A DNA stretch of 64,000 bases from the NCBI GenBank assembly GCA_020426845.1, contig JAGQPF010000363.1, positions 1 through 64,000 of the forward strand, read 5' to 3'. Position numbers and translations under genes: made by a program. The notes beneath the pieces were generated by a model. The model searched no databases and was not told the origin of the DNA. It saw only the letters and a list, made by a program, of their open reading frames with translations. Origin of the DNA: Planctomycetales bacterium (GTDB taxonomy: Bacteria > Planctomycetota > Planctomycetia > Pirellulales > Pirellulaceae). The stretch's first letter is position 1; each line of letters begins with the position of its first letter. Shown here piece by piece: positions 3,201-45,882 of the stretch.

Positions 3201-6200
3201 CGATATTGGGTCACTGCCCCCAAGGGATCCTCAACCTCCGCCAGGCGTCCTAAGGCGTCGTAGCGATAGCGAGTTGTCGAGCTCCCACTGGAGTCGTCCA
3301 CCACCTTTTGCAACACATTGCCGAACAGATCGTACTGAAACCGTGTGGTGACACCGGCGTGGTCCACTTGCTCCGCCACCAGCCCGTTCGCCGTGTACCG
3401 TGTCACGGCGACGCCCGCGTCCCCGGTCTCCTTCACGAGCCGATCAAGTCCGTCGTACAACCGGGTGACGTCACCGACTCCCTGGCCTACCAAGTGGACC
3501 TGCCTGCCCCAATCGTCATGCTCCACAACGGCAGGAAGCGAGCCGCTCACGCGAGTCCCCGCAATTCTTCCATGCGAGTCATAGTCATAGGTCGTCACAA
3601 CGGCAGATGCCGTCTCGTCGCCTGGATCATTCGACTGTTCAACGGCCATGAGCCCGGTCGGGCTGTAGCGATAGACAACCTCGGCCCCCGCGTCAGCTTC
3701 GGCTGACGGGCCGACTTGGCGGGTTAGCCGCGACAGCGCATCGAATTGCCGGACAGTTGTTTGAGTTTCGTAGGCGCCGTCAACCAGAGCGGTCGCGGAC
3801 TCACGCACCACGTTGCCCAGCACATCATAGGAAAAGCGAGTAACCAGCCCGGCGTTCTCGGCATCATAGGTCCGGACCAGACGCCCCAGCCCGTCATGCA
3901 CATTGACCACCATCGTGGCGAGTCGGTCATGGATGTTGCTGCCAAACAGACCATCCAGCAGCCCTTCTGACAGAGGTGCGCCGTTGGCAACGAGTTGCCG
4001 ATCCCAGTCCGCCGCCAACTTCAGCACTCGCGACGGTTGGCCGGACGCGTCATAGGCATACAGCGTTGACACCGGCACACCACCCGTGACGGCCGGCGCA
4101 GCGACCGTCGCCGTCAGTCGCCCAAGCGCGTCGTAGTAGTTGACCGTGGGCGGCGCCAACGGCGCGCCGTCCTGGTCCACGATCTCGGTGGACAGCAGTT
4201 CACCCCACGGACTCCACTGACGCCGTTGCGTCAGCTGGCCATGCGTGGCGTTCACGGTATTCGTGGCGGCAGGGGTCGTAGTTGCGATCAAATTGCCCCA
4301 TGGGTCGTAGTCGTATCGCGTCACGGCGACGCCTGTCGCGGCGGGCTCGCGAGTCGAAACCACCTGCCCCAAGCGATCATAGCTGCGGCCGCTGACGTGC
4401 GATTCGTCGGCCGTCGTGAGGACTGTCGTCACAGGACGCCCCATGACGTCATACTCGTACGTCGTCTCGCGGAGAATCTCGATCCCCAGTCCCTCGCTGA
4501 GGCGTTGGACATTTCCCCAGTTGTCATAGGTGTAGGTCGACATCGCACCGCCCCGTTCCACCCCCGAGGGATGCTGCACCGGATTCGCACGCTCCGACAA
4601 GAGTTGATTTCGCGAGTCGTAGGTCCGCTGCACGACCCGGTCGTAACTGGAGACCGACTGCGAGTCGCCATCGCGGTGCTCAACTTCCATCACGACATTG
4701 CCGAGCACATCGTAGATATACCGAACGGGGAACTGCAGTGACTGGCCGTCGGGACTCGCCCAGCCGTGATCCCACAACAATCGTCCCAGCGAGTCATAGC
4801 TCATCACATGCGTGGCTCCGTCGGCCGCGCGCTCCTGAACGAGTCTCCCCAGCGCATCGTAGACCCAGGCGACGGTCGCGATGCCTTGATCCGCCTCGCC
4901 GGAGGGCACGATCGACTGCTCAACTCGCCGGCCCTGGTCGTCATAGCGCCACTGCCAGCTCAGTCCGTCGGACCCTCGCGTCGTCGTCACGAGCTCTCGC
5001 GCGGCGTTGTATTCATACGCGGTCGCCTTGGCCGCTGCCGTGCCGGAGCCTTGCGTCTCGTACTGAACCAAACCGATGGACGGACCGATGGCGTAGTATT
5101 GCCAATCGGTCGCTCGCATCTGCTCTCCATCCCCGGTGGCCTCGTGGGTGAGCAAGCCGCCCGCCAGCGCTTCAATCGACTCGGGAGGCGGCGTGTAACT
5201 CGAACGGACCACACGGGTCTGCCCGTCCGCAGTGGACGTTTCCGCAAGAACGTTGCCATGCAGGTCGCGCAACCAGGCGGTGCGGACTCCCGTCACATCG
5301 ACATGCCAGCCAGGCATCCCGAGAGAGTCATACCCTCCCCACGCCTCGCGTCCACCGTCCGGATAGACCACCTCCACGAGTTGGTTCCGTTCGTAACGAT
5401 AGGTCGTGCGTTGTGGGGCGAGCGGATTCGTGCCGCCTCCGCCTGCAGGCGCCTCGACCGCTAGCAGTTGGCCATGTTGATTGCGGCGCCAATGCCAGGT
5501 GCTGCGAGCGAATGTCTCCGTCGCCGGCTTGGCATTGGCGGTCAACAATCCAAACGCATCGGTTTGAAACATCCACGTTTGAGTCAGAGATTGCTGCAAT
5601 TCGTTGACGGCCGCCAATGCAACGGTCGCCCACGGCTCGCGGAGCGCGTCGGAGGTTGGCGTCGCGTCCTCCTCCCCGCCGACTGCCGTTTGACGAGCAT
5701 CGGGCTCCAGTCGGCCTCGCGCTGCCAGGCGCAGTTCCCCCGTCCCTGCGATCGCCGCGCCGTCGAGCAACTGCGGCTGCACCGACCAACGCGTGCCGAG
5801 CGGATCCACCACGGCAATGACGGCGCCACTGACGTCCGAGCGGTCAAATCGCGAAAGGGATTGGAGCGGATCGCGAACCTCGACCAGTTGTCCCGCGCCA
5901 TCGTATCCGAACTGCCAATGCGCGGGATCGCCTGCCGAAGTCGGCAACGCCATGTTGGTCAGCCTGCCCTCGCTCATGCTCGGAACATACCGCCGGCCCG
6001 CTTCGTCAACGACCGCGGACAACACACCGGCCTCGTAGCGATAGCTCGTGGCAAGACCGCCCTGCCGAACGACGCGAACGAGATCGTCACGACGTCCATC
6101 TCCATCGGCGTCCTCATAATTGAATTGCGTCCGATTCTGGTTGCGGTCCCGTTGCTCGAGCATGATGCCGCCAACAGAAAACTCCGTCACGTCGCCGCGG

Positions 6201-9200
6201 CCATCGCTCCAGACGAACTTGACGCCGTCGGTGGTATGTTCCCGCTTCAATTCGCCCATGGCGCCGTCGGGCGATTGAAACCTCCAATCGCTGGCAACAC
6301 GGACCTCGCCAGCGGAGACTTTTCCGTCAGAGAACGCGCCGTCGGGACCTTGGGTTGAGAGCTTCACCACCAACGGTTCGTCTCCATCCGTCTCAAAGAA
6401 ACCGAGGCTATGCCAGCGCTCACCGCGAATCTCGATCGCAGGCGCCACGCGCTGATCGACAACAAATCGCGTCGTGGTCTGCAGGCCACCGAACGGCTTG
6501 GCGCCACTGACTTCGTAGTACGCGTTGGAAGCCAATTCGGCGGCGGGGCTCCAGGAGACGAAGACCTGCCCGATATCGGTCACATGGTTCCAAGACCACG
6601 TGACGCTTTCGGCGACGCCGTTGGGCCCGCCCATAGAAACAGGTGCCTGCCCTGCCCTGGCCTCCCAGTCGCCAGTGCGTGTGGCGTTCGACTCGTCATA
6701 CAGGACATTCGGAGTCGCCGCAAACCAGGCAGCGGTCCCATCGCCTCGGCTAATGAAGGCGCCGGACTGCGGCGCCGCGCCGAGCGTCGCCAGCCGCGAA
6801 GCGATTGCCCCGGTGAAGTCGCCGTCACCCATGCGAGCCGTTGGATAGAAGTTGTCCTGCAGATAGAGTTGGCCCGCTGGGGAGACCGCCCAGCCTTGCC
6901 CTAATTCCGTTTCGCCGAACGTTGGATTCAGTCGATTCGACCACTCCATGCCGCCTCGCACCGTGCGGCTCCACGACTGTTCATTGACTGACAACGTCAA
7001 TTCGACATCAACGTCGTAGTGGCCGGTCGGCAGCTGGCTCGCGAGCGACTCCGGCGCCGGCACGACAAGCCGCAGCGCGTCGTGCCGATGGCGAGGGTCG
7101 GCCAGTCGGTCGCGGAGCGAGGTCAGATCAAACGATTGAGCCACCCCACGCACACCCGCCACGGTCGCTGTCGCCACCAACCGCGAGTCGGGAGACATTA
7201 GTGCCTCGCTCCACGGCAGGCTCAACTCGACCTCGATCAACGGTTGCTTGTTCAGATCGTCGCGGTAGACCAGTCCTCCCCAACTGGGCGTCAGCAGCAG
7301 CTGGCCCGTCCGCAATGCGACGTCGCCGTGAGGAGATCGTGGGGCCACGGCCAACTCGGCGTCCGCCACTCCGGAGGATGGCAGGCCGGCTGGCTGACGA
7401 TTCGAGCTCCCCACAATCGCGGCCCGGTCGTTGTCCAGCAGGATGATTCGAGCGCTGGCGACTTCGCCGAGACGATAGGGCAAGGGATCTCCTGGACGAC
7501 CATCGCCAGGCGCCGTCTCCAACAGTCCGTGCGCAGCCGCCATCTCGGCCCAAGTGACGAGTCGCACATCGACCGTCTCATCCCACTCCACCTCACGATC
7601 ATCCACGCCGCGGATCCGCACAAAAACATCGCTGGCGCCGTGCGGGATCACGACCACTCCGTATCCGGTATTCGGGTCGATGGTCAGCGACAACGCTTCG
7701 TCGCGCCCTGTGACACCACGCAGTCGCGTCCATTGCAAATCGGCAAACGAGGCGACGCCAAGCCCACCCGAATCTGCCCGACTCCCTTGTTCGTCATCGT
7801 CCCCGGAGCGACTGGGAAAGAACGACGCTTGAAAGAACACCGGCAGGTCGCCGAACTCATTCCCCGTTCCACGACTGACTCTCAGCAGAGCCTCATCTTC
7901 GCCGCCCTCTTGTGCCAATCCGTCCACGGCTTCGAGCGTTACCGCGGATTCAACGTGAACCCGGATCGTATCAGCCACGGAGCCGGCGATCGCGACCTGC
8001 AGTCCGTCGTGGACTCGCGACGTCATCTCGACGGTCAAGTCGTAGGCGCCCGGCAACACGCCTTCGACGTACAGACGCAACTGTCGCGGGTCGCCGCCCG
8101 TAGCCGCGAACAGCTGGTCGTGCCGAATTACGGACGTGCCGTAGGCGGTGACAGTGGCCGAAGGGATGAGATGTCCGGGCTGCTCGGAGGCAACCCCATT
8201 CGCACTGCGTTCTTGCAGCTGATCCAAGGTCCAAAGCCGAATCGGCGGAAGCCCCTCGGTGCCCTCCAGCCCGGGATAGGTGAACCGGAACGCCGCGTCT
8301 TCCAACGGCATCCACTCGGGCACTTCGAGCACAAGCTCGGCGAACTGCGAGGAGGCAACTTCGACCACGTCGTCGCGATCGCCGGGAAGCACGTTGGCGT
8401 CGAATCCATCCAGGGCATCATCGATCAAGTCGCCGTCGCGGTCCACTTGCGTGGTCAGAATTCGCAGACCGGGAAAGTCGGAAACAGCCTCGACGGCATC
8501 CTCCGCCGCATTGCGTTGCAACGTGCCGTCGTTGTCGGTGTCTCCATCAAGATCCAATTCGCCAACGTGATAGGCAGCGGAGTGGGTCGCCTCGTAGACG
8601 GCCTGAGGGTCGAGCCACGGACTTGCAGCGGCATGGAAGTGAGCTTGGATCTCGCCGCTGCCCAACTCGAGTCCTTCGACGAAGAAGGTGACGGTGTGCG
8701 TAGCCTGCGCAAACCCGTCGAGCATAAAGTGAAGATCGCCTTCCTCGGGAACGACTCCGATGCTCTTGAGGAATTCGGCTGTCGCGTACTGACCTGCGCC
8801 GATGGCTCTCCACTCCTGTGACAGCGACTCGCCCGACGTCACGGGAACGGGAACGCCGTTCTCCCCGGTCCTCCACACGCGAATGTTGTCCGGAAATGAC
8901 AACACCAAGTCACCAACCAGGTCCCGCGGCATCAAGCGATTGGATTCGTTGTGGACCACAAACGAGATGGTGCGGAAGTTCGCAAATTCAAGGTGATACT
9001 GCAAGTCCGTGCGGCGGACAGCCGGATCTTGAACGCGAGGCTCTGTCTCGTAGTAGGTGAACGGGGGTTCGTTGGCCGCCTCGTCCCGCAACGGCGAACG
9101 GTCCGGCAAGCCATCCTCGCCCAGCCAACCGCTCGCGACCAGGTCGCTGCGTCGCGCCTTGTGAGCGACGATCTCGCTGTAGTGCGCATTCGGAGACAAG

Positions 9201-10975
9201 TCCAACGGGATCAGCTCGGCCGTTGGGTCAGTTCGCCAGCGAAATTGCGTTTCCCACGTGAACGTCTCCTCCACTTCGCCACAGGGCACGAGTTCGCCGG
9301 GCAAGGGGGCATCGAGATCGACATCGAGGTACGGGTCGCTGCCGACCGGTGCGACCGGGCTATCATCCAACGGCAGTTCCGGGTCCGCATCGATCGGCGC
9401 GACCGGGTCGTCATCAATCGGCGCGACCGGGTCCTCATCGATCGGCGCGACCGGGTCCTCATTAATCGGCGCGACCGGGTCCTCATCGATCGGCGCGACC
9501 GGGTCCTCATCGATCGGCGCGACCGGTCCGTCATCGATCGGCGCGACCGGTCCGTCATCAATCGGTGCGACCGGGTCCTCATCGATCGGCGCGACCGGGT
9601 CCTCATCGATCGGCGCGACCGGTCCGTCATCAATCGGCGCGACCGGGTCCTCATCGATCGGCGCGACCGGGTCGTCACCAATCGAAATGTCCGCGTTGTT
9701 GTCTGCGCCGGTGTTAAGGTCGTCGCCGGTCGCAGCATCGCCTGGAGCCTCCGCCCATGGCCCAACATCCGTGTCACCCAAAGACTCGGCCTCGGCCGCT
9801 TCGTCGGGTGACTCTTCTGCGTTGGTGGCCAACGGCACTCGACAATAGCTGCCGGGCACTGGATGGTAGATGGCCTGACGGTACTGATCTTCTGGCGTCA
9901 CAGTGACTTCCAGCAGGTCGATGATCTCCCCGCCGTCCACGTCCGTGACTCGAAGCCGAATCGTGGCGAATTCATCTCCCTGCAGATCATGAGCAGGAGC
10001 AAGCCGGAGCGCCCCAAAGGCATCCACCGTGGGTGGATCTCGAAAAGCGGCTGCGTTGTCGACATCGAGCACTTCGAACGCAAGCTCGCCCCGGCGTTCA
10101 GGATCCTGAAAGAGCCCGGGAAGTCTCAACGTTCTCACGTTGCCGCTGACGGCCTCACTGTCGCTTCGCCAGCTTTTCAAGGTGAGATGTGACGTCGAAC
10201 CGCGGGGCGCATCGTTCTCGGGAAGCACATTCACCCAGATATTGGTGGCCCCGATGTCCCCCGCTTCGTCCGTAGCGACCACGGCCCATTGGCTGTAACC
10301 GAATTCGTCCGCATCCAAGGTGACGTCGAGGCGGCCGTCCACTACCACCATCTCTTGCACAGGGTCTGCAGCTCCACTGTGCGTCACGGGCCAGGCGTCC
10401 AAGGTGAGTTGTTCGCCGTCGACTTCGTGAAACCACTCGCCGATATCGATGGAGAACGCTTGCCCCTCAATGACGGTGAATGTGCGTTGCTCGACGTCTC
10501 CCGCCACGACTCGCGGCGCGTCGGGCGCCGGCTCGATTTTCAGCGGGATATCCAGAAAGCCTTGGCGATATCCATCGGACCCTTGCAGCCGCAGCGTGGT
10601 CTCGCCATGGACGTCGGGCATTGACTCAAGTCTCAGCACCTCGGCCTCGGCGACGACCGACACCAATGCTTCGTCCGCCACCTGGGCATTCCAGTGCATG
10701 GGCGCACCGGGGGCGACGTCGAACAGCTGGCCTTGGTCATCGGTCAGCTGCGGGGCCAATTCGGCAAACGCCCAGATCGCCGTCCCGAAGTCCTCGGGAG
10801 CCGTCAGCACCAAGTCGGACGCCATCATCTGCCGCGGCTCCAGCGTCTCCAGCGCAAGCGCCGACGAGCGGCTTGGCCGGCGGGACGCGAGTCCGGCGCG
10901 AGCCGTGCTCCGGCGCCTCGCTCGTTGAGCCATGCGAGCCAGCAATCGTTTCCACGAACGGGTGTGAAGAGGCAT
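269..10975 (-). CDS. Giant RHS/YD-repeat surface protein with toxin-like C-terminus
   Basis: A 3,568-residue protein, much longer than usual RHS proteins (about 1,400-1,600). The N-terminus is Arg-rich, then carries the LETLEPRQMMA signature (about residues 42-53) found on planctomycete cell-surface giants. Ig/cadherin-like segments follow to about 400, then an acidic 8-residue repeat (about 431-544), more beta-rich sequence, a Calx-beta-like region (about 1,060-1,190, 'DREVEWDETVDVRLV'), and a long YD-repeat region (about 1,580-3,150, many 'YDxxGRL' units). The RHS core end 'VSGRYLSPE' lies near 3,188. The last ~370 residues are different: hydrophobic Gly/Ala-rich sequence, then 'LYRVWDPQGS...GGYWSLDP...VPMGTVLYVGEV...GGGSQVVL', which resembles ADP-ribosyltransferase/TNT-like toxin tips of polymorphic toxins (recall, uncertain). 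GGAGGG lies 6-7 nt before the ATG. Probably exported and anchored or displayed; function inferred as contact-dependent toxin or adhesin. The gene has no co-oriented neighbour in the window. Confidence 0.85.
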   Translation of the reverse strand: MPLHTRSWKRLLARMAQRARRRSTARAGLASRRPSRSSALALETLEPRQMMASDLVLTAPEDFGTAIWAFAELAPQLTDDQGQLFDVAPGAPMHWNAQVADEALVSVVAEAEVLRLESMPDVHGETTLRLQGSDGYRQGFLDIPLKIEPAPDAPRVVAGDVEQRTFTVIEGQAFSIDIGEWFHEVDGEQLTLDAWPVTHSGAADPVQEMVVVDGRLDVTLDADEFGYSQWAVVATDEAGDIGATNIWVNVLPENDAPRGSTSHLTLKSWRSDSEAVSGNVRTLRLPGLFQDPERRGELAFEVLDVDNAAAFRDPPTVDAFGALRLAPAHDLQGDEFATIRLRVTDVDGGEIIDLLEVTVTPEDQYRQAIYHPVPGSYCRVPLATNAEESPDEAAEAESLGDTDVGPWAEAPGDAATGDDLNTGADNNADISIGDDPVAPIDEDPVAPIDDGPVAPIDEDPVAPIDEDPVAPIDDGPVAPIDDGPVAPIDEDPVAPIDEDPVAPINEDPVAPIDEDPVAPIDDDPVAPIDADPELPLDDSPVAPVGSDPYLDVDLDAPLPGELVPCGEVEETFTWETQFRWRTDPTAELIPLDLSPNAHYSEIVAHKARRSDLVASGWLGEDGLPDRSPLRDEAANEPPFTYYETEPRVQDPAVRRTDLQYHLEFANFRTISFVVHNESNRLMPRDLVGDLVLSFPDNIRVWRTGENGVPVPVTSGESLSQEWRAIGAGQYATAEFLKSIGVVPEEGDLHFMLDGFAQATHTVTFFVEGLELGSGEIQAHFHAAASPWLDPQAVYEATHSAAYHVGELDLDGDTDNDGTLQRNAAEDAVEAVSDFPGLRILTTQVDRDGDLIDDALDGFDANVLPGDRDDVVEVASSQFAELVLEVPEWMPLEDAAFRFTYPGLEGTEGLPPIRLWTLDQLQERSANGVASEQPGHLIPSATVTAYGTSVIRHDQLFAATGGDPRQLRLYVEGVLPGAYDLTVEMTSRVHDGLQVAIAGSVADTIRVHVESAVTLEAVDGLAQEGGEDEALLRVSRGTGNEFGDLPVFFQASFFPSRSGDDDEQGSRADSGGLGVASFADLQWTRLRGVTGRDEALSLTIDPNTGYGVVVIPHGASDVFVRIRGVDDREVEWDETVDVRLVTWAEMAAAHGLLETAPGDGRPGDPLPYRLGEVASARIILLDNDRAAIVGSSNRQPAGLPSSGVADAELAVAPRSPHGDVALRTGQLLLTPSWGGLVYRDDLNKQPLIEVELSLPWSEALMSPDSRLVATATVAGVRGVAQSFDLTSLRDRLADPRHRHDALRLVVPAPESLASQLPTGHYDVDVELTLSVNEQSWSRTVRGGMEWSNRLNPTFGETELGQGWAVSPAGQLYLQDNFYPTARMGDGDFTGAIASRLATLGAAPQSGAFISRGDGTAAWFAATPNVLYDESNATRTGDWEARAGQAPVSMGGPNGVAESVTWSWNHVTDIGQVFVSWSPAAELASNAYYEVSGAKPFGGLQTTTRFVVDQRVAPAIEIRGERWHSLGFFETDGDEPLVVKLSTQGPDGAFSDGKVSAGEVRVASDWRFQSPDGAMGELKREHTTDGVKFVWSDGRGDVTEFSVGGIMLEQRDRNQNRTQFNYEDADGDGRRDDLVRVVRQGGLATSYRYEAGVLSAVVDEAGRRYVPSMSEGRLTNMALPTSAGDPAHWQFGYDGAGQLVEVRDPLQSLSRFDRSDVSGAVIAVVDPLGTRWSVQPQLLDGAAIAGTGELRLAARGRLEPDARQTAVGGEEDATPTSDALREPWATVALAAVNELQQSLTQTWMFQTDAFGLLTANAKPATETFARSTWHWRRNQHGQLLAVEAPAGGGGTNPLAPQRTTYRYERNQLVEVVYPDGGREAWGGYDSLGMPGWHVDVTGVRTAWLRDLHGNVLAETSTADGQTRVVRSSYTPPPESIEALAGGLLTHEATGDGEQMRATDWQYYAIGPSIGLVQYETQGSGTAAAKATAYEYNAARELVTTTRGSDGLSWQWRYDDQGRRVEQSIVPSGEADQGIATVAWVYDALGRLVQERAADGATHVMSYDSLGRLLWDHGWASPDGQSLQFPVRYIYDVLGNVVMEVEHRDGDSQSVSSYDRVVQRTYDSRNQLLSERANPVQHPSGVERGGAMSTYTYDNWGNVQRLSEGLGIEILRETTYEYDVMGRPVTTVLTTADESHVSGRSYDRLGQVVSTREPAATGVAVTRYDYDPWGNLIATTTPAATNTVNATHGQLTQRRQWSPWGELLSTEIVDQDGAPLAPPTVNYYDALGRLTATVAAPAVTGGVPVSTLYAYDASGQPSRVLKLAADWDRQLVANGAPLSEGLLDGLFGSNIHDRLATMVVNVHDGLGRLVRTYDAENAGLVTRFSYDVLGNVVRESATALVDGAYETQTTVRQFDALSRLTRQVGPSAEADAGAEVVYRYSPTGLMAVEQSNDPGDETASAVVTTYDYDSHGRIAGTRVSGSLPAVVEHDDWGRQVHLVGQGVGDVTRLYDGLDRLVKETGDAGVAVTRYTANGLVAEQVDHAGVTTRFQYDLFGNVLQKVVDDSSGSSTTRYRYDALGRLAEVEDPLGAVTQYRYDNHGRLIGESNGVREVRYEFDPWGRPTAELHPDHVKRWSYDQAGRMERESWWTAGENPVLLYSANFEYTPQGELSRAFDTQYGQASSTIHSEYRFEYDEGTRLLDAAYASWNGAPQPVKINYDYDRAGNLASLSAGQGAAAWMRTQYAYDNRGRLQEMTQSGDVVSDKRLKIDYLDAPSLDSLAHGEQWSLFESSYQPVVRTDLGRLPDGRVSHVRHISSDSQNISSLDLTYNDLGRLVSETRTIEGDASDYERQYEYDDRGQLIQPESRFDAAGNRLGLLNGAKQLVEDVGSRMQYDERGNVIEQIRYTPIATAAPNPGQAEAYRFGSQTLLQGTYRIWANEVVAAGDAVGVVLLDDAGVVAAARVEEGSPLHMEFSVSRNEDFENLRLRFENADGTPVAGARLSEVILQRAQRFQYEYDLRDRLIQVQQYDLGTEQSIIAATRWEYDVLGNVMRTMRDDLADGSLESDRRFVYASGRVVMELDGDGRPQVSRWETPGGRLVAVEEIDVDSGAEDGAGGRVIWTLPDHVGTIRDLVASGSVSHLRYDVYGRPLENIDQVPHEAWNRVTTRFAGFEYDSTHEIYVANGRVYEPVSGRYLSPESGQPGENGYLFAGNAPVNPENLVRSGVAHTGFGWRDTLSSFAANWAYYSHPFHNPHGSYRQLAAGVKLAGWSMYAIGSLGGGVAATVARQASGVAIRAAIGPYLAQQAAFTLAETSVEYALSDTAKYPWASRLGTYFVLNTVSGTMSGNGPWLNQLAGFLGRQTLETAVRTGVDVSRGGELISSVAKNTVAGVGGETVARGVLGAIASMRKLPAVWSVRNRRYELIVSRVPGEIRGHHTAMSPGPLRPDIAATFSGARYAEIELSEPLHLYRVWDPQGSAREVGGYWSLDPNLGTSAIIDLALFPAANRAVRLTSIEVPMGTVLYVGEVGAQRAAMVGGGSQVVLGQRVDPAWIVPPLVRRRDMSYRNLGSDF
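9342..9681 (-). repeat. 24-bp in-frame tandem repeat, about 14 copies
   Basis: The unit reads about GGTCCTCATCGATCGGCGCGACC(G) on the plus strand and encodes the eight residues D-E/D-D/G-P-V-A-P-I inside the giant RHS protein (about residues 431-544). Variants differ mostly at two codons (DED, DDG, NED), so the copies are not identical. The right end decays to 'DADPELPL' and 'DDSPVAPV'. The repeat is acidic and Pro-rich, so probably an extended linker or stalk. The repeat also keeps other frames open, which explains long spurious frames on both strands. Confidence 0.9.
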
Positions 10976-36944: not shown

Positions 36945-38186
36945 TTATATCCCGCCCAGCCGCTTCGCATCGCTCACCCGCCGAATGGCGATCATGTACG
37001 CCGCCGTTCGCAAACTGACTTGGCGCTGCAGCGACTCCTGCCAAATCTCTTCGAATGCATGGCTCAGCACTCGATCGAGCTCCTGGCGGACGCGGTCCAA
37101 CGGCCACTGGTAGTGCTGCAGGTTCTGCACCCACTCGAAGTAACTGACTGTCACACCCCCGGCGTTGGAGAGAATGTCGGGCAGCACCACGCAGCCTCGA
37201 TCATGCAAGACCTGATCGGCCATCGGAGTCACCGGTCCGTTGGCCGCCTCAATGATCATTTCCGCCTGGACGCGGTCCACGTTGCTCTCGGTAATCACTC
37301 CACCCAAGGCGGCGGGAATCAACAGCTGGACATTCAGCAGCAGCAGCTCCTCGTTGCTGATCCGCTCGGCGCCCTCGTAGCCCTCGAGACTGCCGTTGTT
37401 GGCTAACGAGTAACGCAGCAGTTTGGGAATATCGAGCCCCTGGGGATGGTAATAGGCGCCCGAAAGGTCGCTGACGGCCAGCAGCTTGATGTCCGACTCG
37501 TAAAGGAACTTGGCGGCGTGGGCGCCGACATTGCCGAAGCCCTGGATCGCGCAGGTGGTCTCGGTCGGTTTGCGGCCCAGGCGTTGCAACAGCTTGAAGG
37601 CCAGAATGCCGACGCCGCGCCCGGTCGCCTCCTCACGGCCCTTGGCGCCGTAGTGCTCCACCGGCTTGCCGGTGACGCAGGCCGGGTTGAAGCCGTGATA
37701 CTTTTCCCACTGGTTGCGAATCCACGACATCACCTCCGCATGGGTACCCATGTCGGGGGCCGGAATGTCGTCTCGAGGGCCGATGATGTCGTGAATTTGA
37801 TCGATAAACTTGCGGGTGATCCGTTCCAGCTCTTTGCGGCTCAGCAGCCGCGGGTTGACCGCGATGCCTCCTTTGGCCCCGCCATAGGGGATATTCACGA
37901 CCGCCGTCTTCCAAGTCATCAACGAGGCGAGCGCACGCACCTCGTTCAAATCGACATCAGGGTGATAGCGGAGCCCCCCCTTCATCGGTCCTCGAGACTT
38001 GTCGTGCTGAACGCGATAACCCAAAAACGTCCGCAGCGAGCCGTCGTCCATTTCGATCGCAACCTGGACCTGCACCTCGCGTTCCGGGGTCGTCAGCAAC
38101 ACCCGGAGCTCATCGGGGAACTCCAGTTGTTCGGCGGCCCGGTCGAAAAACAGCCGAGCGGCTTCAAACGGCTTGTAAGCGGACAT
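36945..38186 (-). CDS. gdhA: Glutamate (Glu/Leu/Phe/Val) dehydrogenase
   Basis: 413 residues, standard for hexameric NAD(P)-dependent GDH. It interconverts glutamate with 2-oxoglutarate and ammonia. Motifs: 'SRGPMKGGLRYHPDVDLNEV' and 'TWKTAVVNIPYGGAKGGI' (catalytic Lys and substrate pocket, about 91-108), 'APDMGTHAEVMSWIRNQW', nucleotide-binding 'CAIQGFGNVGAHAAKFLYES', and 'SYFEWVQNLQHYQW' near the end. Cytoplasmic, monocistronic; thiC starts 175 nt downstream. Confidence 0.95.
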   Translation of the reverse strand: MSAYKPFEAARLFFDRAAEQLEFPDELRVLLTTPEREVQVQVAIEMDDGSLRTFLGYRVQHDKSRGPMKGGLRYHPDVDLNEVRALASLMTWKTAVVNIPYGGAKGGIAVNPRLLSRKELERITRKFIDQIHDIIGPRDDIPAPDMGTHAEVMSWIRNQWEKYHGFNPACVTGKPVEHYGAKGREEATGRGVGILAFKLLQRLGRKPTETTCAIQGFGNVGAHAAKFLYESDIKLLAVSDLSGAYYHPQGLDIPKLLRYSLANNGSLEGYEGAERISNEELLLLNVQLLIPAALGGVITESNVDRVQAEMIIEAANGPVTPMADQVLHDRGCVVLPDILSNAGGVTVSYFEWVQNLQHYQWPLDRVRQELDRVLSHAFEEIWQESLQRQVSLRTAAYMIAIRRVSDAKRLGGI

Positions 38187-38295: not shown

Positions 38296-41187
38296 ATGGG
38301 GATGGTTGCAAAAGAATTTTGGCGACTTGCCATTCAGAGCCGGATCTTGACGGCCGAGCAAGGCAAGGGGTTAGCCAAACGGTTCGCCGCGATGCCCGGG
38401 GCGGACAAGCTGGACGATGCGCGTTCGCTGTCCGAGTGGCTGGTGAACGAGAACGCCATCAGTCGCTATCAGGCCAAGGTGCTGCTCGCCGGCCGTCCGG
38501 GGCCGTTTCACTACGGCGACTACCAAATCTATGACCGGATTGGCTCGGGGCGTCTCAGCGGGATGTTCCGCGCTGTCCACGTCCCCACGCAACACCCCGT
38601 GCTGCTCGCGTTCCTCAGCGCCGAGGACGCCGGCGACGCTCGGCGCTGGGCCACGATCGCCGGCCAGACACAGGCTTGGTCGCGGACGTCGCACCCCAAC
38701 CTTGCCCGCGTCTACGAGCCCGTCGATGTCCGCACCCACAAGTTCGTCGTTTTGGAGGACCTGCGCGGCCAGTCCCTTGAGGATCTTCTGACCGGAGCGC
38801 CTCGGCAACCGGGAGAGGCAGCGGCCTGGACGCAGCAGATCGCCACGGCTCTGGCGCACCTCCACCGCGCCAAATTGGTTAGCGGAGACGTCCGCCCCGC
38901 CACCATCTGGATCTGCGACGGCCAAGCGAAACTGCTGGTCGATCCGCGCGTCCGCCCGACTCCGCCCCCCGTGCGCGAGCCCGACACGACAGGACAGTTG
39001 CTGGAGCGAGCCGACTACTTGGCCCCCGAGTTTGCCTCAGGCATCAAAAGCCCCGACGCCAAGACGGACGTCTACGCATTGGGAGTCACGCTGTACCGCA
39101 TGCTATCGGGACACGTGCCGTTTGCCGGCGGCGACGTCGCCCAGAAACTTCAGCGTCACGCCTCCGAGGCGGTCCAGCCGTTGCCGGCCCACGTGCCCGC
39201 CGCGTTGGGCCAGTTGACCAACTACATGATGGCCAAGAACGTCGAAGTTCGTTACCAGGACGCGGACGCCGTCGCCGAACAGTTGCGACCGTTCGTCATG
39301 GTGGCGCCACCAACGCCGTCCCCTCCCGAGACGCTTGGTCCGTTCCTCCAGCATGTCAAACAGAAGCAAGCGGCATTGGCGGCCGCCAGCGCCGCTCCCG
39401 TCATTCACCCCAACGCCGGCGGCGACGGCGAGGCGCCACGGCCCGGCATTCAATTGAATGAAGCGGACGCCCCCGCGACGTCGCTCGCGCGACGCCCCCG
39501 CAAGAAGAGCAACACGGGTTGGATCATCGGAGGAGTCTGCGCGGCCGCGGCAGTGATCGCCGCGATCTTGATCATCTCCAGCCAAAGCGGAGAGCGAGCC
39601 GGGCAAAATGTCGCCGGCGGACCATCGCAGTCGGTAACCAACGTCTCCGGAACGGGCGGAGCCGTCGACAGCCAGCCTGAGGCCACTCCCGGATCGAGCG
39701 CCGGGCAGCCGAACAATTCCTCAAAGAACACCTCAACCGACGCCGGCCCGTCGGCGGCGCCGCTGGCCAGTGACGACGGGCAGTCACTTTGGGGCTCGCC
39801 AACCCTGGGCAGTCCGCTGTCGCTGGATTACTTGCCTCGCGGCGGGTACGTCTATATCGCCAGCCGCCCGGCCGATCTGCTGTCGACCGACGCAGGCAGT
39901 CAAGTGCTGCAGGCGATGGGAGAGCACTTCGGACAACAGCTCTCCGCTTGGGAACAGCAATCCGGCGTCAAGCTGGCGGAGATCGACTCGCTGTTAATCA
40001 GCATGCAGGACAACGGCGACGCGTTCCCCAGGCCCTGCTTCGTCGTCCGCCTGCGGCAAGCGGCCGCGAAAGCCGACCTGCTCGCAGCCTGGAAAGCGCA
40101 ACCTGCAGCGGACGAGTCGTACTACAAGGGCGCCCAAGCCAGCTTCTTCATCCCCGCCAGCGAGACGGACGACGCGGTTTCGGTGTTCTCGATGGGGGAC
40201 GACAAGGACATTCAAGAGATCGTCGAATTGAAAGGCGTGGCGCCGACAGCCGATCGGTTCACGCCGCTGCTGGCCAGCTCCGATGCGGACCGGCACGTGA
40301 CGATTCTGTTTACTCCGTTTGACGTCAGCACCCACTTTTTCCGAGACGGCCGAAAGTTCTATTTCGGCGAGCCGCGCAAGGCTCGCGAGCCGCTGGAGTG
40401 GCTGTTTGGCGATCAGGTGAACGCCGTGGCGGCAAGCCTGCACGTCACAGCGGACAACACTTTCCTCGAATTGCGGATGTCGAACCATCTGGACATCAAG
40501 CCGCTGGACGTCGCCAGCCAGTTGCGAGATCGAATGGACGAGATTCACGGTCTGATCGAGACCTATCTGGTGAGGATCTCGCCTCCCGAATATTGGCGGC
40601 GTTTTGCGTTTCGCTTTCCCAGCATGTTCCGCTACCTGCACCAACAAACGCGAGTGCAAGTGGATCAGGGGCTGGCAACGATCAACGCCGTGATGCCGCC
40701 CGCGGCCGCGCATAACCTGGTCTTCGGTTGCGAGATGACGCTGGCCTCGGAGCCGAACACCATGGTCGCCGCGGCGCCGACCGCCGGCGCCAATGCTCCG
40801 GCGACGGTCGACGAATTGCTGCAGCTCCCCATGAGCCTGTCGTTCGACCAACTGTCGCTGGAGTTCGCGATGGCGCAGTTGCAGACCGACGCGATCGAAA
40901 ACCACAAGCCGAAGTTCGACTTCAAAGTCACGATTATCGGCGCGGATCTGGAGCTGAACGGCATCACCCGCAACCAGCAGATCAAGGAATTCGCGATGCG
41001 AGACAAGCCGATCGCCGATCTGCTCACCGCGCTGGTGATGAAGGCCAACCCGATTACCACCGTCAAGTCGCCCAACGAACTCGACCAGAAACTCGTCTGG
41101 GTGATCGACGGCGCCTCGATTTTGATTACGACTCGCGACGCGGCGGCCACGAAAAACCTCAAGCTGCCCCCGGTCTTTCAACCCTAG
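38296..41187 (+). CDS. Membrane-anchored Ser/Thr pseudokinase with extracytoplasmic domain
   Basis: 963 residues. The N-terminal ~70 residues ('FWRLAIQSRILTAEQGKGLA' ... 'YQAKVLLAGRPGPF') are the helical module common before planctomycete Ser/Thr kinases. A kinase fold follows (about 75-340), but key residues are lost: no Lys in the beta-3 strand ('HPVLLAFLS'), HRDxKxxN is 'SGDVRPATI' and DFG is 'DPR'. 'KTDVYALGVTLYRMLSGHVP' keeps the C-lobe. A membrane helix is at about 407-428 ('GWIIGGVCAAAAVIAAILII'), then a Ser/Gly/Pro-rich linker and a ~450-residue extracytoplasmic part. Its end ('ELNGITRNQQIKEFAMRDKP') resembles secretin-N/STN domains. Probably a signalling or scaffold protein, not an active kinase. 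Confidence 0.88.
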   Translation: MGMVAKEFWRLAIQSRILTAEQGKGLAKRFAAMPGADKLDDARSLSEWLVNENAISRYQAKVLLAGRPGPFHYGDYQIYDRIGSGRLSGMFRAVHVPTQHPVLLAFLSAEDAGDARRWATIAGQTQAWSRTSHPNLARVYEPVDVRTHKFVVLEDLRGQSLEDLLTGAPRQPGEAAAWTQQIATALAHLHRAKLVSGDVRPATIWICDGQAKLLVDPRVRPTPPPVREPDTTGQLLERADYLAPEFASGIKSPDAKTDVYALGVTLYRMLSGHVPFAGGDVAQKLQRHASEAVQPLPAHVPAALGQLTNYMMAKNVEVRYQDADAVAEQLRPFVMVAPPTPSPPETLGPFLQHVKQKQAALAAASAAPVIHPNAGGDGEAPRPGIQLNEADAPATSLARRPRKKSNTGWIIGGVCAAAAVIAAILIISSQSGERAGQNVAGGPSQSVTNVSGTGGAVDSQPEATPGSSAGQPNNSSKNTSTDAGPSAAPLASDDGQSLWGSPTLGSPLSLDYLPRGGYVYIASRPADLLSTDAGSQVLQAMGEHFGQQLSAWEQQSGVKLAEIDSLLISMQDNGDAFPRPCFVVRLRQAAAKADLLAAWKAQPAADESYYKGAQASFFIPASETDDAVSVFSMGDDKDIQEIVELKGVAPTADRFTPLLASSDADRHVTILFTPFDVSTHFFRDGRKFYFGEPRKAREPLEWLFGDQVNAVAASLHVTADNTFLELRMSNHLDIKPLDVASQLRDRMDEIHGLIETYLVRISPPEYWRRFAFRFPSMFRYLHQQTRVQVDQGLATINAVMPPAAAHNLVFGCEMTLASEPNTMVAAAPTAGANAPATVDELLQLPMSLSFDQLSLEFAMAQLQTDAIENHKPKFDFKVTIIGADLELNGITRNQQIKEFAMRDKPIADLLTALVMKANPITTVKSPNELDQKLVWVIDGASILITTRDAAATKNLKLPPVFQP

Positions 41188-41406: not shown

Positions 41407-41485
41407 CTCGATTGCCTCGCGAAAATGACGTTGTTTGCTCCCGTCGAGCTGTCGCTGCACTGACCTCCAACATGCAACCGTCAAC

Positions 41486-43786
41486 GTGAGCACATTCCAC
41501 ATAACCTGCACGACCTGCCGTGCGCGACTCAAAGTGAAGGATGAGTCCGCGATCGGCCTGGTCCTGTCCTGCCCGAAGTGCGGCAGCATGGTGCAGGTGC
41601 TGGCTCCGGACCCCGCTCGGGAAACGTCGCCGCCAACTAGCGAGATGCCGGCCAGGCTCGGCGCCGCGACGCCGCATGACTCGATGCAGGAGACGCTCGC
41701 GGACTTCTCGTTGCCCGACGAATTCGTGTCGGCGCCCACGGAGATGACCCGTGGACCATCAGTAAAGGAAACCCGAAGCGTCAGCGAGGGATCGAGTCGC
41801 CGAGCCGCAACGTCCGAGGCAGCGGCCGCGCAAGGCGAGTCTCGGCAGAACATGGGCGACTCAAGCAGTGAGACGCGCGTCGATGGGTTCGGCGACCCGA
41901 GCCAATTTGAAACGCCCTTAGAGATGCCCCCGGAGCCGGCCTCGGCGCCGCCGATGCCAACGAGCGACGAACCGCCTGAGTCGCCGCGACTGGATCAGCA
42001 GTGGATCTCTCAAGAGACGCGACAGATGCGGCAGTGGCTGTTGGCCGGCGCCGCGATGGTCTTCGGCGTGTTGATCGTCGTCGCGTTGATCGGATTCATG
42101 CTCTCGCAGCAGCGAGGCGTCGAGACGGCGACCGGCAACTCCACTCCCGACCCCAATGACGTGACGGCCACAGCGAACGGAGCGAATGACGCCTCCAGCG
42201 CGGAGTCCAACCCGACAGAGTCCAACCCTGCGGAGTCCAATCCCACGGAGTCGGGCGATCCAACCAGCGCTCCGGTGACGTCCGCAAACCCGGCGGAGTC
42301 ACCTGACCAGCCACCCGCATTGCCCGCGTTGCCCGTGGCGCCGTCGCCGGACGATGCTCTTCCTCCGGTCGCTCCGGCGCAGCCCGCTCCCGCTCCGACC
42401 AACGACGCCGAGCCGGCGCCTGGCGCGGAAGGCCCCGCGCCGCCGGCGCCTCCCGAACCCGGCGGCGATGCGCTCGGGCCACCCGGACTGCGACCGGCCG
42501 GCGCCGAACTGCTCGGCCCGATCTCGCCGCTGGATGGCGAGGACGCGATGCGGGAACTGTTGAGCGATCAAAACTTCGCCGGGCTGGAGTCGATGATCGA
42601 AGAAGGAGCCAAGCCCGGCTCACCGATCACCGCGCCCGATCCCGATCGCGACACGATCGTCAATCGGCTCAAAGGCGAAGTGGATCCGCCGCGTCGGCCT
42701 CCGGGAGTCAATATCGACGCGCCGGAACAGTTGAAAGCGATAATCCCCGAGCTGCAGTGCGACGACGTGGCGCTGCAGAGTTTTCTGCAGTTCATCATGA
42801 GCGTCTCGACCGTGCCAATCACGGTTGATCCGGACGTGTTCATTCACACCGAGGTGACACCGCAGTCGAAGGTCTCATGCCGAGCGACGGACGCCTCGGT
42901 GTTGCAGATCCTGACCACCGCCGTCCAACCGTTGGGACTGGCCGTTGAGGTCGGGCCTCGCCACGCTCGCTTGGTGCTCGATCGGCGTGCCGAGTTGATC
43001 AACTACGGTTTTCCGACCGAGGACCTCGGCGCCACCCCCGAACAGCGTCAATGGCTGGTGGCGACCATCAAGGCCGTGGTGGAGCCGGGCATGTGGGCGC
43101 CAGTCGGGCCCGGCGACGTCACCTGGGCCGATGACCAAACCCTGTCGGTCAAACAATCTCGCCGGGGCATGTTCGAGGTCGTGCAGCTGCTCAACACGCT
43201 GCGCACTGCGCGTCAGCTTGAACCGCGTTCCAAACGGCCGCCGGCACGATTCGCGCTCGGCACCCGCCGGACTCGAGCTCTCGAAAAGCTGGCAAAGTTG
43301 ACAAGCGTCAACTTCCGCAACCCGGCGCCGCTCGAGGATGTGCTCGCCAAACTGACCGAGCAAACCGAGATGCAGTTCGCCATCGACTGGCAAGCGATCG
43401 AAGCAGAAGGCTGGAATCGCGGCACGGAGGCCACGCTGCTGACCCATCGCGAATCACTGGGCGAGGCGCTGCGACTGCTGCTCACGCCGATGGCCTTGGA
43501 CTATTTGGTGCTCGATGCCGATCTCATTGTGCTGACCACACCCCAAGGCGTGTCGGAATGGCCGGAACTGGCGGTTTACGCCGTGCCGGACTTGGTGCCC
43601 GAGGGCAACGACATTGAGCTGGCACTGGAGCAAGTCCGCAGCCGGCTTGGAGCCGAGCTGTTTGCGCCGGAAACGGGAAACGCGTTGGCGTTTGACCCCG
43701 ACAGCCGGTCGTTGATCGCGAGGTTGCCGCAATCGAGGCAGCGGCAACTGCAACTGGTGATCGCCGAACACCGGCGAGACGACTGA
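41486..43786 (+). CDS. Zinc-ribbon, single-pass membrane protein with STN-like domains
   Basis: 766 residues from GTG 41,486, which starts directly at the zinc ribbon ('ITCTTCRARLKVKD...LSCPKCGS', CxxC at 8-11 and 29-32); an upstream ATG would add 17 odd residues. Disordered stretch (about 35-170), membrane helix (about 183-205, 'LLAGAAMVFGVLIVVALIGF'), a long Pro/Glu/Asn-rich linker with repeated 'ESNPTESNPAESNPTES', then two secretin-N/STN-like domains (about 430-510 and 600-680: 'LEDVLAKLTEQTEMQFAIDW', 'SLGEALRLLLTPMALDYLVL'). Residues about 94-105 ('KETRSVSEGS') derive from a dispersed repeat. It follows the pseudokinase on the same strand and shares its STN-like end, so a common envelope role is likely. 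Confidence 0.8.
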   Translation: MSTFHITCTTCRARLKVKDESAIGLVLSCPKCGSMVQVLAPDPARETSPPTSEMPARLGAATPHDSMQETLADFSLPDEFVSAPTEMTRGPSVKETRSVSEGSSRRAATSEAAAAQGESRQNMGDSSSETRVDGFGDPSQFETPLEMPPEPASAPPMPTSDEPPESPRLDQQWISQETRQMRQWLLAGAAMVFGVLIVVALIGFMLSQQRGVETATGNSTPDPNDVTATANGANDASSAESNPTESNPAESNPTESGDPTSAPVTSANPAESPDQPPALPALPVAPSPDDALPPVAPAQPAPAPTNDAEPAPGAEGPAPPAPPEPGGDALGPPGLRPAGAELLGPISPLDGEDAMRELLSDQNFAGLESMIEEGAKPGSPITAPDPDRDTIVNRLKGEVDPPRRPPGVNIDAPEQLKAIIPELQCDDVALQSFLQFIMSVSTVPITVDPDVFIHTEVTPQSKVSCRATDASVLQILTTAVQPLGLAVEVGPRHARLVLDRRAELINYGFPTEDLGATPEQRQWLVATIKAVVEPGMWAPVGPGDVTWADDQTLSVKQSRRGMFEVVQLLNTLRTARQLEPRSKRPPARFALGTRRTRALEKLAKLTSVNFRNPAPLEDVLAKLTEQTEMQFAIDWQAIEAEGWNRGTEATLLTHRESLGEALRLLLTPMALDYLVLDADLIVLTTPQGVSEWPELAVYAVPDLVPEGNDIELALEQVRSRLGAELFAPETGNALAFDPDSRSLIARLPQSRQRQLQLVIAEHRRDD
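41762..41797 (+). repeat. Dispersed repeat inside a coding region
   Basis: AAAGGAAACCCGAAGCGTCA + GCGAGGGATCGA is the reverse complement of the 11.4-kb repeat unit. Here it is read in frame as KETRSVSEGS in the disordered cytoplasmic tail of the zinc-ribbon protein. The frame is kept on both sides. Confidence 0.85.
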
Positions 43787-43905: not shown

Positions 43906-43993
43906 CCCTTGAAGCAAGGGGATGTGGATCGTTCGTAGATCTGGTTTTCAAACCGTCCACAAGCCCCGCAGCCAATGCTTCGGGGCTTTTTTT
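43906..43993 (+). terminator. Three-hairpin structured region ending in an intrinsic terminator
   Basis: Hairpin 1 CCCTTG-AAG-CAAGGG (43,906-43,920); hairpin 2 GTGGA...TCCAC (43,924-43,960) with an inner GGTTT/AAACC; hairpin 3 AAGCCCCG/CGGGGCTT (43,961-43,988) with a 12-nt loop and a run of seven T (43,987-43,993). It lies 120 nt after the zinc-ribbon gene and 60 nt before aroF. The simplest reading is the terminator of the upstream gene; an attenuator or small RNA is also possible because of the extra structure. Confidence 0.75.
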
Positions 43994-44053
43994 ATGTCTG
44001 TGGTTCATCCCATGAATGCGGCGCCCCACGCCAAGCCCCAGGAGTTGTTTTCG

Positions 44054-45067
44054 ATGATCGTCGTGATGGAGAAGAACGCTACTTCCGAGCAGGTCGCCCA
44101 CATGGTCGATCGCGTGCAGCAGCTGGGGCTCAAGGCCCATGTGATCGAGGGAACGGAGCGGACGGTGATCGCCGCGATTGGCGACAAGCGGGAGACGATG
44201 CGCGAATCGCTCGCCAGCGGCGAAGGCGTCGCGGAGGTCGTGCCGATTCTCGCTCCGTACAAGGTCGCAAGCCGAGAGGTCAAGCCGGAGCCCACCTGTG
44301 TCGAGCGCGGCTCGCTGAAGGTCGGCGCCGGACACTTAGGCGTGATCGCCGGGCCCTGCTCGGTGGAGTCCGAAGAACAGATTATGGAGTCGGCCCGAGC
44401 GGTCAAAGCGGCCGGCGCCACGGCGCTGCGCGGCGGAGCGTTCAAGCCTCGCACCAGCCCCTATAGCTTCCAGGGCCTCAAGGAAGAGGGCCTCCGGCTG
44501 CTCGCCGCCGCTCGCGAGGAGACCGGTCTGGCCGTCGTCACGGAGGTGATGAGCACCGAGGACGTGGAGTTGGTGGCCAACTACGCCGACGTGCTGCAGA
44601 TCGGCGCCCGCAACATGCAGAACTATCGGCTGCTGGAGGCGGTCGGCGGCGTCGACCGGCCCGTGTTGCTGAAACGCGGCGCGAGCGCCACGATGGAGGA
44701 GCTGTTGCTGGCCGCCGAGTACATTTTGAATGAAGGCAATCCAAACGTGATGCTGTGCGAGCGAGGCATCCGCACGTTCGAGTCGCACACTCGCTTCACG
44801 CTGCCGCTAGCCACGGTTCCTTACCTCCAGCACAAAACCCATCTGCCGGTGGTGATCGACCCCAGTCACGGCACGGGCCACGCCTACCTGGTGCCGCCGA
44901 TGGCCGCCGCAGCCGTGGCGGCCGGCGCCGACGGCCTGATCATTGAAGTCCATCCCTCGCCCGAGCACGCCATGAGTGACGGGTATCAGTCACTGACTCC
45001 CGCCCAATTCGCCGCCACGATGGTTCGCGTCCGCGCCGTCGCCCAGGCGCTGGCGGCGACCCCCTGA
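44054..45067 (+). CDS. aroF: 3-deoxy-7-phosphoheptulonate (DAHP) synthase, AroF type
   Basis: 337 residues. It condenses phosphoenolpyruvate and erythrose 4-phosphate, the first step of the shikimate pathway. Start at '[14 protein letters not shown]' (GGAG 9 nt upstream); upstream in-frame codons run through the terminator hairpin and are unlikely. N-terminal ferredoxin-like domain (about 1-70), as in Thermotoga-type enzymes, then the barrel: '[10 protein letters not shown]' , '[20 protein letters not shown]', '[10 protein letters not shown]', '[13 protein letters not shown]', '[11 protein letters not shown]' and '[19 protein letters not shown]'. The ferredoxin-like domain is the usual site of Tyr/Phe feedback inhibition in this class. 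Confidence 0.96.
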
Positions 45068-45109: not shown

Positions 45110-45515
45110 CGGAGGGATCACGCAAAGACGCAAAGTCGCAAAGGGCAAAAATCCCGGTACTTCCCTTCCCTTCTTTGCGTCTTGGCGGCTTGGCGTGAGA
45201 ACATTTGCCTGCAGGGATCGACCGGCGGATTCCGTGGAGTCATCTCGCCAGAGGCATCACGCAAAGACGCAAAGTCGCAAAGGACGTGGCCAAAATTCCC
45301 TTCCCTTCCTTCCCTCTCTTCCTTTCTTTGCGTCTTGGCGACTTGGCGTGAGAACGTTTGCCTGCAGGGATCGACCGGCGGATTCCGTGGAGTCATCTCG
45401 CCGGAGGGATCACGCAAAGACGCAAAGTCGCAAAGGACGTGGCCAATCCCTTCCCTTCTTTGCGTCTTGGCGGCTTGGCGTGAGTACGTTTGGCTTGCCG
45501 GGATCGATCGAGCCT
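45110..45515. repeat. Three-unit array of hairpin-forming dispersed repeat
   Basis: Three units start with CACGCAAAGACGCAAAGTCG at about 45,119, 45,258 and 45,411 (periods 139 and 153). Each unit ends with CTTTGCGTCTTGGCGGCTTG + GCGTGAG, the partial reverse complement of its start, so each can fold as a long hairpin. Units are joined by an almost identical 60-bp spacer ('CTGCAGGGATCGACCGGCGG' ...). Spurious frames across it read KTQSRKGRG or LCVFA, recurrent in many bacterial genomes (recall). The 815-bp gap 45,068-45,882 holds no gene besides this array. Confidence 0.88.
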
Positions 45516-45704
45516 GTCTGAACCATCGCCTCATGGGCTGCGTAGCAGCCACTGGCGGGGTTGGTAGTCGTTTGTGCCGGCGCTGCGACGCTCGGCCGCA
45601 CCCATTGCCAACACAATGCGGGAGGCAGGAAAGGCGGGCGCGGCAACGGTTTTGGCGCCGTAAAAGCCCCCTTTCGGGGAAGGCGAAATTTCGCCGCATT
45701 TACT

Positions 45705-45732
45705 TTGCACCGAAATTCGGTTGGAGTATGCT
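45705..45732 (+). promoter_or_regulatory. Possible promoter of the mono-haem-like gene
   Basis: TTGCAC (45,705-45,710), 16-nt spacer, TATGCT (45,727-45,732), about 150 nt before the ATG. A GAAATTTCGCC/GGCGAAATT inverted repeat lies just upstream (about 45,681-45,695). Confidence 0.45.
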
Positions 45733-45882
45733 ACGGTCTTGTGGAAGCCTGCCCGAACCAGGGAATTCTTGACGTTCCGGCATCCCCTCTGGAGTGTCGA
45801 CGTGAATGATGGTGCCAAAATCATTGACGAGACGCAGGCACGAACGACGATTTTTCTAACCACATCTGAGGAACCTAACGCA

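Follow-up and report, generated by a model that had tools for sequence, protein, structure and literature searches.

Introduction

Bacterial pseudokinases are described as experimentally largely unexplored in a 2025 review (PMC12599244), which presents seven pseudokinase-rich bacterial families, mainly from actinobacteria, proteobacteria, cyanobacteria and firmicutes, and in whose main text a text search for 'planctomy' gave no occurrence. Among the systems covered in that review, EssB/YukC of type VII secretion is described as a cytoplasmic pseudokinase joined to a transmembrane helix, with three degraded catalytic motifs and a non-catalytic role in scaffolding and recruitment, and the mycobacterial MviN pseudokinase (ActPs3) as a membrane-linked protein that recruits a partner (PMC12599244). 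A further protein of relevance here is TP0453, reported to be a lipoprotein of the inner leaflet of the outer membrane with membrane-inserting amphipathic helices (the source being among PMC2754498, PMC10353723, PMC7521688 and PMC9200625). No published description of the planctomycete family presented below was found within the literature library and the search terms used, and this family may sit unnamed in the data of the 2019 tree-of-life study or of the 42-family study. In this work, a gene within a 64,000-nucleotide stretch of planctomycete DNA (hereafter the window) was analysed together with its orthologues and its neighbourhood.

Results

The gene under study (38296..41187, + strand) starts with ATG and encodes a protein of 963 residues, for which orthologues were found and which is predicted to consist of a cytoplasmic pseudokinase, a transmembrane helix and an extracytoplasmic part. 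The N-terminal helical domain (about residues 1-68; 38296..38499, +) contains helices within residues 5-64 of the predicted model and shows BLAST matches to kinases of the same genome, which begin in the window protein at residue 4 for locus L006, 14 for L003, 44 for L002 and 45 for L005; a similar stretch lies ahead of some intact kinases of that genome. It is followed by a protein-kinase fold in which catalytic residues have been lost (residues 69-337; 38500..39306, +). Pfam Pkinase covered residues 76-322 with an E-value of 7.2e-22 (78.5 bits vs. a cut-off of 31.7), and the whole window protein matched only Pkinase, PK_Tyr_Ser-Thr and, weakly, APH in Pfam up to E 1. The predicted structure of this part shows both lobes of a complete kinase (pLDDT 94.0), with Z-scores of 30.0 to PknA and 29.7 to PknB, and the part ranked 104 out of the 127 PF00069 stretches (in about 109 genes) of its own genome. 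Moreover, a membrane helix was located by hydropathy at about residues 408-430 (39517..39585, +), and the basic stretch RRPRKK preceding it suggests that the N-terminus lies inside the cell. About 530 residues are C-terminal of this helix, the last 474 of which (residues 490-963) were taken for modelling.

The model of the outer part had a pLDDT of 92.9 and a pTM of 0.70. Below an E-value of 1e-3, the Foldseek search with this model retrieved only six chains, all of TP0453 (best, 5.3e-8), and VIA-align to TP0453 gave a Z-score of 11.3 over 216 aligned residues (model residues 20-325, rmsd 4.3 Å, 10% identity), defining a TP0453-like, predicted extracytoplasmic domain at residues 509-814 (39820..40737, +). 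This likeness is one of modelled fold only and says nothing on function; a profile search of the outer part against PDB sequences gave no match up to E 1, TP0453 included. A second stretch, residues 835-957 (40798..41166, +), resembled secretin N0 domains, with Z-scores of 8.3 to EscC (85 aligned residues, rmsd 2.8 Å, model residues 346-468) and 7.8 to PilQ, and phage-tail structures reached up to 8.2 in the same stretch among the matches listed. As the phage-tail matches tie in the fold search, the N0/STN reading leans also on sequence, namely on the STN matches of the partner protein encoded downstream and on hhalign, which aligned the N0/STN-like domain of the window protein with two domains of that partner (E 1.1e-8 and 1.8e-5). 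The GIT.N and TR positions of residues 835-957 are conserved, forming invariant alignment columns. Pfam gave no STN match in the window protein up to E 1, no match to the secretin pore domain in it and no family for the outer part up to E 0.1. When 46 outer parts were searched, scattered Pfam matches alone were obtained, with best E-values between 0.0058 and 0.069, and STN appeared in 2 of the 46 (best E 0.066). Overall, the predicted fold of the outer part combines a TP0453-like domain with a less certain secretin N0-like stretch.

The alignment comprised the window copy, 93 orthologues and seven kinases from the window's own genome. The site numbers used below (K72, E91, D166, K168, N171, D184 and so on) follow PKA numbering. 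In this family alignment, K72 is replaced by Ala (Ala105, in the beta3 strand HPVLLAFLS; 38593..38619, +), E91 by Gln, HRD by S-G-D, K168 by Arg and N171 by Thr (the three latter in the catalytic loop SGDVRPAT; 38881..38904, +), and D184/F185/G186 by V-D-P (in the DFG region LLVDPR; 38932..38949, +). Hence, the HRD Asp (D166) is kept in the window copy, and the HRD His and Arg and the alpha-C Glu are lost. The C-lobe motifs APE and DAKTDVYALG (39019..39084, +) are kept, the window retaining P207/E208 (APE), D220 and G225 as well as R280. The DFG register differs by one residue between alignments, with Val under the DFG Asp in the family alignment and the Asp of VDPR there in the pairwise alignments with PknB, the latter being also the register of the initial annotation. 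The former register reflects the reading KLL-x-[DF]-P of many relatives, and under both of them the DFG Phe and Gly are changed. The seven kinases of the same genome, which were the best BLAST matches to the window protein, were canonical at the compared sites, with F, L or M at the position of the DFG Phe. The initial annotation had proposed a retained fold with C-lobe motifs, changes at the beta3 Lys, the catalytic-loop Asn and the DFG Phe and Gly, and a membrane helix with a large outer part, all of which were recovered in these alignments, models and hydropathy profile. Judging from the loss of motifs, the protein would have lost catalytic activity.

These losses extend to the whole orthologous family, which is wider than the initial annotation had stated when it proposed a pseudokinase and a search for the same changes in orthologues. 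Across 94 distinct kinase-bearing orthologues (the window copy included, with gaps scored as not kept), K72 was kept in 6, E91 in 3, D166 in 26, N171 in 33 and the DFG Asp, in the family register, in none. An Asp one column past the DFG Asp site was found in 39 of them, and 55 had no Asp in either column. In the family register, K72, D166, N171 and D184 were jointly absent from 53/94, and K72 or D166 was absent from 89/94, a count that is independent of the DFG register. C-lobe sites were kept at high frequencies: Pro207 in 81/94, Glu208 in 82/94, Asp220 in 86/94, Gly225 in 85/94 and Arg280 in 84/94. Furthermore, D166 and N171 without the Lys were found in 14/94, and K72, D166 and N171 were all kept in five (L040, L050, L168, L169 and L187), which have no DFG Asp in the family register. 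No intact orthologue was present among the 94, the nearest being L040, with the three sites plus the shifted Asp. Given these five sequences and the shifted Asp of L040 and others (39/94), residual nucleotide binding is conceivable. A separate alignment of 47 orthologues gave the same picture of losses. If pseudokinases are defined, as in PMC12599244, by the lack of at least one of the beta3 Lys, the HRD Asp and the DFG Asp, the window protein belongs to them as it lacks the Lys, and so do 94/94 orthologues under the family DFG register.

As controls, the motif HxDxKxxN was found in 28 out of 28 readable sequences of the 30 best-scoring kinases of the same genome, a set that is biased by having been chosen partly by motif, and, among the 13 loci without the outer part in the scan of named genomes described below, 12 had the HxD.K..N loop and D.G. 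Because the same sites were lost across orthologues, a pseudokinase family, with no chance loss, rather than one broken copy is well supported by these sequence comparisons. An assembly error or decay of the window copy alone was likewise ruled out by the losses across the 94 orthologues.

The distribution of the family was then examined by genome scans. Of 60 genomes from relatives, a set that includes the window's own, 56 gave a match to the outer part (residues 490-963), a weak one in some cases. A scan of named genomes was based on ten closer relatives, the window protein alone as query having recovered no relative; it gave 78 loci, 65 with the outer part and 13 without it, from Rhodopirellula baltica, Blastopirellula marina, Roseiconus, Stieleria and Botrimarina among others. 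Within the class, 76 of 118 genomes (again with the window's own) matched at E 1e-3 or better, many of them weakly or partially. Long strong matches were confined to the order of the window, Pirellulales as judged from record names, and to one other family of the class (f22), in which 29 genomes matched at E 9e-41 or better. One family of the order (f17) gave no match in 3 genomes. In a sample of the phylum, 6 out of 119 genomes matched, all of them in the class of the window. By these sequence matches, the family is found through most sampled members of Pirellulales.

The pooled set comprised 140 outer-part proteins (window included), 122 of which were distinct. Their inner part was a kinase in 94, a zinc ribbon in 13, neither in 14 and a remnant in 1, as sorted with a kinase profile built partly from the same orthologues. 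Of the 14 proteins with neither, 7 were cut, split or contained runs of N, and 7 were uncut and belonged to the order. All 13 loci read in f22 had a CxxC...CxxC zinc ribbon at the position of the kinase, one of them with a Pfam Zn_ribbon_5 match slightly below the cut-off. The constancy of the outer part is to some extent built in, as this part served to find most of the loci, and any pseudokinase devoid of it would have escaped detection.

A tree of the outer part (110 rows, quick method, no root inferred) placed f22 in one clade with a support of 100. Five changes were counted on it for all three states of the inner part, and four for the state 'none', three of these being forced by starred branches. 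The kinase part was detected by profile in 90/110 rows, and the kinase-less rows included a Lacipirellulaceae-type group with Botrimarina, plus L083, L149 and L054, the last of which retains a kinase remnant. In particular, one genome (G125) carries two copies of the outer part, one without the kinase part (L149) and one with it (L150). In the record of Blastopirellula marina, two overlapping frames (L151/L197) together make up the orthologue.

Immediately downstream of the window gene lies a partner gene (41435..43786, +, start provisional), whose product has an N-terminal zinc ribbon (41495-41611), a transmembrane helix (42026-42103) and two STN-like stretches, according to Pfam, hhalign and hydropathy. 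Among the distinct loci of the order, 104 were testable and 5 more were left out; a match to the partner profile lay directly downstream in 76 of the 104 and was absent next door in the other 28, including all 19 rows of the Rhodopirellula baltica clade (L060, L064, L066, L067, L069, L071, L072, L086, L152, L153, L200, L202, L207, L209 and L211-L215). The inner part of this clade, where compared, showed a weak or no match to that of the window. Because these rows form one clade, their missing partner and divergent inner part provide no test. In f22, the partner profile was matched next door in 3/13 loci and a second ORF with the CxxC-pair pattern lay immediately downstream in 8/13, with no informative common neighbour besides this second zinc-ribbon ORF in the f22 neighbourhoods. 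As the zinc ribbon is present in the partner in both groups, our leaning is that the zinc ribbon preceded the kinase, on a tree that, being unrooted, gives no direction.

Among 40 partner proteins, 21 had a Pfam STN match with an E-value of no more than 0.01 (best, 1.8e-10) and 7 matched DUF1559. The latter is reported with 68 paralogues in Planctopirus limnophila, two of which are essential (PMC10632474). Longer partner genes occur in L078 (7221-10763), L074 (6331-9828) and L084 (3453-7172); in that of L078, DUF1559 and STN are both above the Pfam cut-off, with a weaker zinc-ribbon match alongside. The other neighbours of the window gene, both named by Pfam and recurring beside part of the orthologues, are a divergent glutamate dehydrogenase upstream (36945-38186, -) and a DAHP synthase downstream (43922-45067, +). 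Elsewhere in the same genome, L134 (contig C423, 301-2949, -) encodes a peptidase-like membrane N-terminal part and a DUF1559-like end, both named by eye, and matches the outer-part profile weakly (E 1.7e-5), which hints that the TP0453-like domain may be a wider planctomycete building block. Two further features of the window were recorded: AKTQRREG-like repeat units in open frames on both strands at 45118-45772, perhaps a non-coding repeat, and an ORF of 3568 residues at 269-10975 (-).

Discussion

The reading that we favour, with a probability of about 0.58, is that of a single-pass inner-membrane protein, whose membrane sidedness we infer, in which the kinase fold is a non-catalytic docking or assembly module and the part kept throughout is the pair of TP0453-like and secretin-N0/STN-like domains beyond the membrane. 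The cytoplasmic kinase fold would no longer transfer phosphate and would serve docking or assembly, with the C-lobe as a putative docking face; the extracytoplasmic domains would reach towards the outer membrane, and the window protein would form a complex with the zinc-ribbon/STN partner. As some relatives have a zinc ribbon at the place of the kinase part, or nothing, this part is probably a docking piece and not an enzyme.

The initial annotation had called the protein a receptor-type pseudokinase, of which the pseudokinase stands. A receptor-type role, in which the outer part would sense a ligand or the state of the envelope and the pseudokinase would allosterically control a true kinase among the hundred or so of the genome, is unlikely, although it would suit the topology with its large outer part, the 127 PF00069 stretches and the N-terminal stretch common to some intact kinases. 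The folds of the outer part match components of envelope machines, however, and this part persists in relatives that have a zinc ribbon at the kinase position or lack the kinase.

The kinase part could also be a decaying relic that is being lost and has no role, with the outer part alone being of importance. The retention of the kinase part in 90/110 tree rows, with the fold residues of the C-lobe kept over order-wide divergence, and its confident model (pLDDT 94.0) make this quite improbable, even if the drift of the motifs across orthologues, the at least three changes to no kinase on the tree and the copy split into two frames could be taken as signs of it. Finally, an atypical active enzyme, in which catalysis would run through D166 and the VDPR Asp with another residue in the role of the Lys, is very hard to sustain, since conservation as an enzyme should have preserved one residue set whereas here the sites vary (D166 absent in 68/94, DFG Asp present in 0/94 in the family register, no Asp in either column in 55/94), and this in spite of D166 and an Asp at or beside the DFG site in the window, the 14/94 with D166 and N171 but no Lys, the 5/94 with all three sites and the adjacent Asp that accompanies them in L040.

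Beyond the docking or assembly module itself, it is possible, and proposed here tentatively, that these loci represent a planctomycete trans-envelope assembly of tandem membrane proteins with secretin-N0-like and TP0453-like outer domains and an exchangeable cytoplasmic head, which may be a zinc ribbon (in f22), a kinase captured and then silenced to act as a structural adaptor (in the order of the window), or nothing (in several lineages). Planctomycetes are unusual in their cell biology, and the family would thereby point to a candidate assembly in their envelope. Moreover, the outer part stays while the inner part varies, so its history is partly readable, and for this reason the role of the pseudokinase is testable by comparison and by domain deletion.

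With regard to known systems, the GLW pseudokinases carry GLW at the HRD site, unlike the window protein, which has SGD. The nearest solved folds to the window kinase model are PknA and PknB (Z about 30, 26-28% identity), from which it differs by the replacements at the beta3 Lys, the alpha-C Glu, the catalytic-loop Asn and the DFG motif and by the lack of a PASTA match in Pfam. The secretin N0/STN domains of EscC and PilQ are similar in modelled fold to residues 835-957, with the phage-tail matches tied, but the window protein has no secretin or STN match in Pfam. The modelled fold of residues 509-814 is alike to that of TP0453 (Z 11.3), whereas the window domain is attached to a transmembrane helix and a kinase fold and shows no sequence match to it. 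As for MviN/ActPs3, the window protein shares with it the nature of a membrane-linked bacterial pseudokinase, but gave no MviN/MurJ match in Pfam up to E 1. Compared with EssB/YukC, it differs in having no YukC match in Pfam up to E 1, in an outer part that is TP0453-like and N0-like, and in its neighbours, which are the glutamate dehydrogenase, the zinc-ribbon/STN protein and the DAHP synthase. Nevertheless, the cytoplasmic pseudokinase, the transmembrane helix and the degraded motifs are common to both, by the description given in PMC12599244. Since the fold and the C-lobe motifs are kept and the catalytic residues are not, and since the inner domain may be a zinc ribbon or absent where the outer part is retained, in loci mostly found through that outer part, a docking or assembly head like that of EssB/YukC fits the window protein better than an enzyme.
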